From a virus, in the IMG/VR virus record IMGVR_UViG_3300036841_000075, positions 1 to 47,146 of that record: a stretch of DNA of 47,146 nt. One strand, given 5' to 3'. The notes beneath the pieces are model-generated. The model worked only from the letters and a program-made list of their open reading frames with translations. It was not told the origin of the DNA and ran no database searches. The position numbers and the translations under genes were made by a program. Shown here piece after piece: positions 37,080 through 46,965 of this stretch (its first letter is position 1; each line of letters starts with the position of its first letter).

Positions 37080-37246
37080 CCCTCACCGGAGTCCCCGCCC
37101 ACAACCCCGCAACTGGCGCCCGCCGCTACACCGGGGCCGAGTTCGTCATCCGCCTGCGGGAGGTCAACCGCACCAGCTCCATCGACCTCCAGCCTGCCCC
37201 CGCCAAGCCCACCACCAAACGAGCCCGAAGGAAGCCCCGCCGATGA
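37076..37246 (+). CDS. small basic protein (56 aa)
   Basis: It starts MTLTGVPAHNPATGARRYT; a helix (EFVIRLREVNR) is followed by a proline/lysine/arginine tail (KRARRKPRR) that probably contacts DNA or RNA. Both ends overlap neighbours by 4 bases, directly leading into the WhiB gene. Function unknown. Confidence 0.55.
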   Translation: MTLTGVPAHNPATGARRYTGAEFVIRLREVNRTSSIDLQPAPAKPTTKRARRKPRR

Positions 37247-37803
37247 AGCGCCCTCTCTACACCGCCAACCTCTCGAGCACCAACGACCTCCCCGACTGGC
37301 GGGCCAAGGCCCGCTGCGCCACCCTGCCCGACAAGGTCCTCGAAGCCATCTTCTGGGTCGACCAGGGCGAGTCCGTACGCGAAGCCAAGCAGACCTGCGA
37401 AGCCTGCCCCGTCCGCGCTCAATGCCTCGAATGGGCCCTCTCGCTCCCCGCCCGCCAGACCGAGTTCGGTGTCTGGGGCGGCTACAGCGGCCGGGAGCTC
37501 CGGCGCCTTCGTGCCGGAGAGGAAGTGCGTGGCCACCGCCGCCAGATCGTCGGCAAGCGCACGCTCGTCCCGGCCGAGGCCTTCCGGTCCGTCCTCGCCG
37601 CCCAGATCGGCACACGGTTCCCCAACCGCTGGCAGCTCTGCCTGTACGTCCAGCGCCACTCCGGCAGCCCAGCTACCAGCGTCGAGAGCTTCATCGCCGG
37701 CGACGGGCCCCGCGTCTCCTACGAGTGGGCCTCCGAGATCGCCCGAGCCCTCGGCTGGCACGACCTTCCCTCCCAGCTCTGGCCGGAGGTGGTGGCGGCA
37801 TGA
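37243..37803 (+). CDS. WhiB-family iron-sulphur regulator with C-terminal extension
   Basis: A 186-residue protein. The WhiB domain (residues 14-90) has all four cluster cysteines (Cys25, Cys52, Cys55, Cys61), the GVWGG turn at 76-80 and a basic RELRRLR tail. Such proteins hold a [4Fe-4S] cluster, bind the primary sigma factor and steer transcription; they are restricted to actinobacteria and their phages. About 95 extra residues follow (FRSVLAAQIGTRFPNRWQL, VSYEWASEIARALGWHDL), an HTH-like region absent from typical WhiB proteins. It probably redirects host RNA polymerase. Confidence 0.85.
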   Translation: MKRPLYTANLSSTNDLPDWRAKARCATLPDKVLEAIFWVDQGESVREAKQTCEACPVRAQCLEWALSLPARQTEFGVWGGYSGRELRRLRAGEEVRGHRRQIVGKRTLVPAEAFRSVLAAQIGTRFPNRWQLCLYVQRHSGSPATSVESFIAGDGPRVSYEWASEIARALGWHDLPSQLWPEVVAA

Positions 37804-44875: not shown

Positions 44876-45046
44876 ATGCCCATCCGCGAACCCGAAGAGA
44901 CTGTCCTCTCCGAGGAGTTGAAAGCCGCTTACGCCCTCATCCGCACCCTGCACCGCGACATCCTCAGGCTGGGCTTCTACAGGCGTGCTCTCACCGAGCA
45001 GGAGCAGATCACCCTCAAGGCCGCCATCGAGGCAGGCGCCCGATGA
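44876..45046 (+). CDS. small helical protein (56 aa)
   Basis: It starts MPIREPEETVLSEELKAAY and is helical throughout (ALIRTLHRDILRLGFYRRAL). ATG 44876 follows AAGGAG. Its stop overlaps the transporter start (ATGA), so its product level is tied to the transporter. No family recognised. Confidence 0.58.
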   Translation: MPIREPEETVLSEELKAAYALIRTLHRDILRLGFYRRALTEQEQITLKAAIEAGAR

Positions 45047-45546
45047 AGCCCCGGCATCTCCTGTTCCCCGCCTACGTGGGCACCATCGTGGGGGCCAACT
45101 GGGCCATAGCTACCTTCGGCGCCGTGCCCGTCGGGTTCGGGCTCTTGGCCCCTGCAGGCGTTTACTGCGCCGGACTGGCATTCACGCTCCGGGATTTACT
45201 GCACGATGCGTTCGGCCGCCGAGCCGCAGTTATCGCCATCGGCGCAGGAGCCTTGCTGTCGGTTACGACCGGGGGGCGGCTGGCCCTCGCCAGCGGCGTT
45301 GCATTCCTGCTCAGCGAGCTGGCGGACCTCGCCGTCTATGAGCCCCTGCGGCGGCGCGGATGGCTCCGTGCGGTGTTCGCAAGCAACGTGGTTGGGCTGA
45401 TCGTGGACTCGGCTCTGTTCCTCTGGTTGGCATTCGGAAGCCTCTCGTTTCTCGCCGGTCAGGTCGTCGGCAAGACCTGGATGACCCTTCTCGCCATCGT
45501 CGTACTGGGGGCACTGCGCCGTGGAGTTTCTGCTCGGTACGCATGA
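45043..45546 (+). CDS. VUT-family transporter (YhhQ-like, 7-deazaguanine precursor uptake)
   Basis: A 167-residue membrane protein with five to six helices. The family signature is visible: TIVGANWAIATFG near the start, then CAGLAFTLRDLLHDAFGRR, AFLLSELADLAVYEPLRRR and VGLIVDSALFLWLAFG. YhhQ/VUT proteins import preQ0 or preQ1, bases for queuosine. Its 3' end overlaps the DpdA-like gene by 26 bases, so the two are almost certainly made together. The inferred job is to bring a deazaguanine base into the infected cell for DNA modification. Substrate is inferred, not seen. Confidence 0.78.
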   Translation: MKPRHLLFPAYVGTIVGANWAIATFGAVPVGFGLLAPAGVYCAGLAFTLRDLLHDAFGRRAAVIAIGAGALLSVTTGGRLALASGVAFLLSELADLAVYEPLRRRGWLRAVFASNVVGLIVDSALFLWLAFGSLSFLAGQVVGKTWMTLLAIVVLGALRRGVSARYA

Positions 45547-46294
45547 GGTGTCGTGGCTGAGAAGAACAACCGTTCCTCTCTTCGTCAGCCACCGGCGTTT
45601 GGCCAAGCGCAAGTATTTGCCCCGTGCCTTAGGACCATGGGCGCTCGACAGCGGAGGCTACACGGAGCTCAATATGCACGGCCAGTGGGTCACGACAGAA
45701 CCCGAATACGTGGACGCGGTCCGGCGCTACACCGCTGACATTGGCGTTTTGCAGTGGGCTGCGCCGATGGACTGGATGTGCGAACCGTGGGTGGTAAGCA
45801 AGACAGGCTTTAGTGTTGTTGAGCACCAGCACCGGACTGTGGACAACTACTGCCGGCTGCGCCAGATGGCCCCCGATCTGCCTTTCATTCCCGTGCTGCA
45901 GGGTTACGAGCGGGCCGACTATGACCGCTGCATCGGGTTCTACGAAGAGGCTGGCGTTGACCTCTGGAGGGTGCCTCTGGTGGGACTCGGGACCATGTGC
46001 CGGCGCCAAGGCGAGAAGGACATCGAGCGCATCGTGACCGACCTGGCCCTCCTGAATCTGCCGCTTCACGGGTTCGGTATAAAGATCCGGGGGCTCAAGC
46101 AGTACGGGTGGGCGCTTGTCTCGGCCGATTCGATGGCATGGTCGTTGCGAGCCCGCCGACACGAGGCCCCCATGCTTCCCGGCTGCACCCACAAGACGTG
46201 TGCCAACTGCTTCGACTACGCCCACCATTGGCGTCTGCACGACGTCCTGCCCACGCTCGTCAACCAGCAACCCCGGATGCTCCGGGCCGGATAA
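45521..46294 (+). CDS. dpdA: DpdA-family DNA-guanine transglycosylase (deazapurine insertion)
   Basis: A 257-residue relative of tRNA-guanine transglycosylase. It has ALDSGGYTEL with Asp43, then WAAPMDWMCEP (80-89), FIPVLQGYERADYDR, VGLGTMCRRQ (154-163), LHGFGIK (182-188) and VSADSMAWS (200-208). A zinc-type cluster follows (Cys222, Cys227, Cys230, then His). This order matches phage DpdA proteins, which exchange guanine in DNA for a 7-deazaguanine such as preQ0 and so resist restriction. No synthesis genes (folE, queD, queE, queC) are present; the overlapping VUT transporter suggests salvage. GTG 45521 is the only reasonable start. Confidence 0.82.
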   Translation: MEFLLGTHEVSWLRRTTVPLFVSHRRLAKRKYLPRALGPWALDSGGYTELNMHGQWVTTEPEYVDAVRRYTADIGVLQWAAPMDWMCEPWVVSKTGFSVVEHQHRTVDNYCRLRQMAPDLPFIPVLQGYERADYDRCIGFYEEAGVDLWRVPLVGLGTMCRRQGEKDIERIVTDLALLNLPLHGFGIKIRGLKQYGWALVSADSMAWSLRARRHEAPMLPGCTHKTCANCFDYAHHWRLHDVLPTLVNQQPRMLRAG

Positions 46295-46517: not shown

Positions 46518-46840
46518 CCGTCCCCGAGCTGCTCGCCGCCGTCCTCGATGAGCGCCTGCGGCAGGAGCGCATCTACGGCCCCCAGGCCGGCGTCCTGTCC
46601 CCGATGGAGTGGGCCTCCGTTCTCGCGCAAGAGGGGGCCGAGCTCATGGAGCAGCTCGCCGGGGCCGTCAAGCGGGTCCAGCAGGCCGCTGCCAACGAGC
46701 AGGGCTACCGCCTCAAGCCCCCCACCGATCTCCGGCTCGAAGCCATTCAGACCGCCGCCACCGCCATCCGCGTGGCCGAGTTCGCCAAGCGCCTCGAGGA
46801 CCACCCCGCCGTCCCCATCTTCAAGGACTTGGCCTCATGA
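46514..46840 (+). CDS. MazG-like nucleotide pyrophosphohydrolase-type protein
   Basis: A 108-residue helical protein. It reads [14 protein letters not shown], then [20 protein letters not shown] and [20 protein letters not shown]. Acidic residues in the first helical pair (EGAELMEQ) and a closing helix match small phage MazG/DUF550-like proteins that hydrolyse nucleoside triphosphates. The strict EExxE set is not perfectly kept, so activity is uncertain. It could clean the nucleotide pool for modified-DNA synthesis. The same gene end reappears at bases 1-53. Confidence 0.62.
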
Positions 46841-46914
46841 TCGAAGTCACCGCCATCGACCTCGCCATCCTCCTCGCCATGCTCGAGGACCATCAACTGG
46901 AGAGCCTCACCCCC
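46788..46914 (+). repeat. exact 127-bp repeat, right copy (left copy 1-127)
   Basis: Identical to bases 1-127, covering the end of the MazG-like gene and the first 26 codons of the 42-residue protein. From 46915 on it leads to a D12-class methyltransferase gene instead of the Dam-type gene at 175-732. Confidence 0.9.
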
Positions 46915-46965
46915 AGCGAGGAGGCCGCCATCGAGAACCTCCGAGACTGCTTGGCTGCCCAGTGA
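46837..46965 (+). CDS. 42-residue conserved small protein, copy B
   Basis: [13 protein letters not shown] as in copy A (50-178). The last 16 residues differ at five places (PSEEA for PREEG, CLAAQ for CLARR). Both copies end in an overlap with a methyltransferase start (GTGA here), so each version of the tail travels with its own enzyme. Function unknown. Confidence 0.75.

Follow-up and report, generated by a model that had tools for sequence, protein, structure and literature searches.

The VUT and DpdA genes

The window, which is the whole of IMG/VR record IMGVR_UViG_3300036841_000075 (positions 1 to 47,146; 47,146 nt), carries two overlapping genes on its plus strand. The upstream gene (45043..45546, ATG start) encodes a 167-aa membrane transporter of the VUT family (QPTR/YhhQ-like), with six helices, that belongs to a short phage subfamily. 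The downstream gene (45521..46294, GTG start) encodes a predicted DpdA-family (TGT-like) DNA 7-deazaguanine transglycosylase of 257 aa. The two reading frames share 26 nt (45521..45546), exactly as the sequence-only reading had described, and the overlap probably reflects translational coupling.

Profile searches place both proteins in the families that had been proposed for them, PF02592 and PF23859. The transporter matches PF02592 (Vut_1) with an E-value of 3.8e-13 and 50.5 bits against a cut-off of 27.2, over profile positions 65-148 of 152 only, and phrog_4899 at 3.6e-40. Its scores fall under the cut-offs of the curated models, with 38.5 bits (1e-9) against the equivalog cut-off of 50.95 for TIGR00697 (queuosine precursor transporter) and 29.2 bits against 252 for PRK11212. 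Judged by these scores, the protein is therefore related to the curated preQ0/preQ1 transporter (QPTR/YhhQ equivalog) and not a member of it. An AF2 model (pLDDT 90.5) has six helices, and the nearest solved folds in a Foldseek search, at weak E-values, are the ECF S-components RibU and BioY; a PDB sequence search with the VUT and DpdA proteins returned nothing relevant. The E. coli homologue YhhQ is a preQ0 transporter (PMC5372724). From the function of the family and the genome context, we infer on good grounds that the window's VUT imports a 7-deazaguanine.

The DpdA protein matches PF23859 at 7.6e-91 (304.5 bits against a cut-off of 27; profile positions 5-248 of 291) and phrog_1279, which PHROGs labels a queuine tRNA-ribosyltransferase, at 7e-97. 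The GTG start is supported by the homologues, whose conserved N-terminus, M-x-F-Y-L-G-T-H, aligns with it. The AF2 model (pLDDT 92.5) is a TGT-like TIM-barrel, and Foldseek ranks a TGT (4q8p, 4.2e-6) and a solved DpdA (7ui4, 1.3e-5) ahead of the first non-TGT fold (2.4e-4). A DSG motif (codons 45647..45655) contains the putative catalytic residue D43, and D43, S44 and G45 are invariant in an alignment of 16 homologues (alignment A3). A second putative catalytic Asp, D203, lies in an ADS motif (codons for D203-S204, 46127..46132) that is likewise invariant in the 16 homologues. When the motif order is set beside host TGT sequences, D43 and D203 would correspond to the two catalytic Asp residues of TGT; a profile comparison of the window's DpdA family with host TGT is not significant. 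A zinc-site-like Cys cluster, C-x4-C-x2-C (C222, C227, C230; 46184..46210), is found in the window and in many homologues, is incomplete in loci L015 and L019 and is absent from L004; the corresponding host TGT pattern is C-x-C-x2-C. The sequence-only reading had named the Asp pair and a zinc site for checking: the putative Asp pair is invariant among the 16 homologues, and a zinc-type Cys cluster occurs in the window and is not shared by every homologue. What is known of the family, taken with the genomic setting, makes insertion of a 7-deazaguanine into DNA by this protein a well-founded expectation.

The third-position GC contents of the two genes (0.77 for VUT and 0.78 for DpdA) lie below those of the other window genes (mean 0.90, sd 0.05), which fits a recent acquisition. 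Neither a preQ1 riboswitch nor any other credible Rfam match was found near the pair.

Genome completeness and host

The previous claim that the window lacks genes for preQ0 synthesis agrees with our Pfam profile searches, which gave no match for QueC, FolE, QueF, PTPS/QueD, radical SAM/QueE or TGT in the whole record. The record carries no completeness estimate, and completeness is judged here only from a repeat at its ends: positions 1-127 recur exactly at 46788-46914, with 97.5% identity across 162 positions (1-162 against 46788-46949). This repeat suggests a nearly complete contig that closes on itself around a circular or permuted genome, which makes preQ0 genes on missing sequence unlikely. 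Beyond the repeat the two copies run into different methyltransferase genes, which may reflect strain variation at the circular junction. PADLOC returned only methyltransferase matches.

The host is probably an actinobacterium, given a GC content of 68.8%, a gene for a WhiB-family regulator (37243-37803) and the finding that DpdA relatives located in genomes by a search with the window's DpdA family are almost all actinobacterial. Such a GC content and a WhiB gene fit actinobacteria and their phages.

VUT is linked to DpdA genes of distant families

We searched IMG/VR phage contigs by the VUT sequence alone, which gave 278 places, and kept the best 80; locus L012 was left out as bacterial rather than phage on the basis of its glnE/hemH-like neighbours, judged by eye. 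Among these best 80 of 278, a DpdA-family gene lies within 700 bp of VUT at 74 of the 80 loci (56 of 62 after dereplication), and at 50 of the 74 linked loci the distance is at most 60 bp. In each of the ten named phages with this VUT that we examined, no more than about 510 bp separates the transporter gene from a DpdA-family gene. The survey for such pairs in other phages that the sequence-only reading had called for shows that VUT is near-obligately linked to DpdA-family genes in phages. Five VUT loci of the best 80 gave no DpdA match by the models used: L068 and L064 are truncated by the end of the contig, no such neighbour was detected in L032 or L081, and in L021 a TGT-like protein with IIDSGAFQEL and FSTDSS motifs and no Pfam or PHROG match (L021:1276-2139) overlaps the VUT gene. 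From its motifs, the L021 protein possibly represents a further DpdA family.

The partners belong to at least three distant DpdA families, phrog_1279 (that of the window), phrog_887 and phrog_15826, and occur in both gene orders. In the best 80 of 278 VUT loci, VUT precedes DpdA for phrog_1279 and mostly does so for phrog_15826, and mostly follows it for phrog_887. The phrog_887 and phrog_15826 families are mutually related (hhalign 91%), and profile comparison of the window's family with either is not significant. The depositors of the Bhagsy and Aoka genomes call the phrog_15826 proteins DpdA-like, but these proteins do not match the DpdA family in Pfam, which makes their activity less certain. 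VUT proteins that share 82-92% identity have DpdA partners from different families (for example L007/L083 and L015/L017), and on a weakly supported VUT tree the partner family must have switched at least 17 times. VUT stays in place while the DpdA beside it is exchanged for one from a distant family, and at the genomic level this argues strongly that supply and insertion form a single function.

The reading-frame overlap varies within this arrangement. In 37 of 48 VUT-first pairs of the window's DpdA family the genes overlap by 4 nt, a layout typical of translationally coupled genes. The 26-nt overlap of the window is an outlier and has a different reading-frame relation from its 4-nt relatives.

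Nearby MazG-like and methyltransferase genes, which the sequence-only reading had joined to the pair as a modification island, lie outside the conserved unit. In the other VUT-DpdA loci we found relatives of the window's methyltransferases in only two or three cases, and none of its MazG-like gene or remaining flanking genes. A clustering of neighbouring genes, compromised by antisense reading frames of the GC-rich DNA, listed no cluster containing the window beyond the VUT and DpdA chains.

A proposed cassette for import and insertion of a 7-deazaguanine

We consider it likely that VUT and DpdA form a portable cassette that imports a 7-deazaguanine and inserts it into DNA, in place of synthesis by the phage itself. 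The identity of the pair and its linkage come from sequence and model, and from these we infer the substrate, the product and the import step. During infection, the VUT protein would enter the host inner membrane and bring preQ0 or preQ1, both of them 7-deazaguanine bases, into the cell from its surroundings. DpdA would then exchange the imported base for guanine in the phage DNA, and the modified DNA would be guarded against host restriction. Related cassettes encode a QueF-like enzyme that may first convert imported preQ0 to preQ1; the window has no QueF-like gene, so that here preQ0 or preQ1 would most likely be inserted directly. It is plausible that the precursors come from the microbial community.

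When VUT and DpdA are not direct neighbours, the intervening gene is often QueF-like. This holds at six distinct loci, all with phrog_15826-type partners: those of Aoka (gp39), L037/L039, L044/L045, L047, L073 and, weakly, L070. The QueF-like genes are small, at L006 6525-6854, L037 10626-11018, L044 3888-4244 and L070 9735-9980 (the weak case), with approximate positions of L047 6766-7053 and L073 8190-8498. For Aoka gp39, the match to the preQ1 synthase model TIGR03139 (6e-9) does not reach the cut-off of that model. In all of the QueF-like proteins a Cys and an Asp stand seven residues apart (CPxxxxxD), which we take to be the spacing of the QueF active site. The presence of these genes within the cassette points to preQ0 as the base that would be imported there. 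Short phrog_37496 proteins with a CxCP motif also occur between VUT and DpdA (L005:6775-7008 and L070:9735-9980). The idea that the phage salvages its precursor gains weight from the near-obligate linkage across distant families together with the QueF-like genes inside the pair.

Distribution of VUT, synthesis genes and host pathways

A second survey, conducted with the window's DpdA family, covered 79 further viral loci and 80 bacterial loci. VUT is present in 24 of the viral loci (within 700 bp in 23) and in 28 of the bacterial loci; in the positive loci it precedes DpdA on one strand and is nearly always directly upstream. Most DpdA loci of this family in the survey have neither VUT nor a nearby synthesis gene. 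Among the viral loci, preQ0 genes accompany none of the 24 with VUT and 3 of the 55 without it, numbers too small for a conclusion about mutual exclusion.

We then compared 50 bacterial genomes that carry such an element, 25 with VUT and 25 without. A tRNA-TGT is missing from 45 of the 50, is matched in five and is full-length in three; these three are the same genomes that have a full-length host-type YhhQ, whose gene adjoins tgt in two of them. Because most carrier genomes have no tRNA-TGT, VUT is unlikely to serve tRNA queuosine. Strong host QueC matches do not predict VUT, occurring in 9 of the 25 VUT-positive and 11 of the 25 VUT-negative genomes, and missing host synthesis therefore does not explain which elements have VUT. 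In three actinobacterial genomes, a QueC gene is found no more than about 2-3 kb from a short VUT (G051:C34, G053:C253 and G060:C56), which suggests another type of element with its own preQ0 synthesis plus VUT.

These distributions bear on the best placed of the alternatives, in which the host makes the preQ0 pool on which DpdA draws and VUT raises its level without any true salvage. Such a boosting role, proposed for EC151, fits the occurrence of VUT beside complete preQ0 pathways in CAjan, which has FolE, QueD, QueE and QueC, and in EC151 (PMC8310023), and it means that VUT alone is not a marker of salvage-only modification. The strong QueC matches in nine VUT-positive bacterial genomes also fit. 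However, the other 16 of these 25 genomes have no strong match, and among 51 whole phage records (the window and 50 others that bear VUT) four contain QueC, which leaves 47 without it, and two contain a full FolE. We regard a purely boosting role as improbable.

We think it quite unlikely that VUT instead carries some other purine analogue or a vitamin and that DpdA inserts a base not yet described. VUT proteins do vary in specificity (PMC11130926), and the window's subfamily lies outside the curated equivalog, but the QueF-like genes in the cassette point to preQ0 and the known products of DpdA enzymes are 7-deazaguanines (PMC6884629). Slightly less likely still is modification of RNA, with preQ0 or preQ1 placed into host or phage tRNA during infection: the DpdA protein is TGT-like, bears a tRNA-ribosyltransferase label in PHROGs and has a tRNA TGT as its top structural match, but it matches the Pfam DpdA family and not TGT, genetic evidence from phages 9g and CAjan connects DpdA with the modification of DNA (PMC6884629), and the window has no tRNA gene.

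Relation to known systems

Among the systems closest to the proposed import-and-insert cassette is the third group of Hutinet et al. 2019, the DpdA-only phages such as Orion and Salmonella phage 7-11 (PMC6884629), which, like the window, have DpdA without genes for preQ0 or G+ synthesis. They differ from the window in that its VUT overlaps dpdA. For these phages, uptake of an exogenous precursor was suggested, and YhhQ homologues were noted in some phages with no correlation to any group (PMC6884629). Mycobacterium phage Orion, which has DpdA only, has unmodified DNA (PMC6884629), and this counts against our preferred reading. Pantoea phage MED16, also with DpdA only, contains dADG at about 0.13% of G (PMC8306585).

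The clusters of CAjan/Seuratvirus and EC151 resemble the window in that a phage-encoded preQ0 transporter accompanies DpdA, and in EC151 this transporter sits inside a full pathway (PMC8310023). Unlike the window, they encode FolE, QueD, QueE and QueC and a CAjan-type DpdA, and their transporter is a distant VUT, 27% identical to that of the window and not adjacent to dpdA. Bacterial QPTR/YhhQ genes beside or fused with a tRNA-TGT, as in Nocardia, where yhhQ adjoins tgt, show the same coupling of importer and transglycosylase; QPTR is fused to the bacterial TGT (QPTR-bTGT) in some species (PMC11130926). In contrast to the window's VUT, the host proteins serve tRNA queuosine, are longer and cover the whole of PF02592 in their matches (E-values of about 1e-45 to 1e-50). 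VUT also adjoins a DpdA-family gene in Pectobacterium phage PEAT2, Mycobacterium phage Bhagsy, Arthrobacter phage Aoka and Sinorhizobium phage phiLM21, which differ from the window in DpdA family or gene order and, in Aoka, in the QueF-like gene between the two. Mycobacterium phage StevieRay is another phage with VUT and DpdA; the genus Mycobacterium is reported to have no preQ0 pathway (PMC6884629). We found no description of the VUT-DpdA linkage, or of the version with a QueF-like gene, in literature that was incompletely covered, and both provisionally look new.

Hundreds of phages, Orion with its unmodified DNA among them, encode a DpdA without the means to make its substrate. A broader picture, which we offer more tentatively than the cassette itself, is that VUT, an interchangeable DpdA and sometimes a small QueF make up a mobile module that spreads among phages whose bacterial hosts have no tRNA queuosine; the phage DNA would then be modified with a base supplied by the community. 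If this is correct, protection of these phages from restriction would hang on the metabolism of their neighbours, through a metabolite shared between microbes.

PAPS-reductase-like genes also occur near VUT-DpdA pairs (L009:7203-8120 and L007:165-965), in Rhodococcus phage ReqiPine5 and, within this same region, in Rhizobium phage RHph_N3_2.
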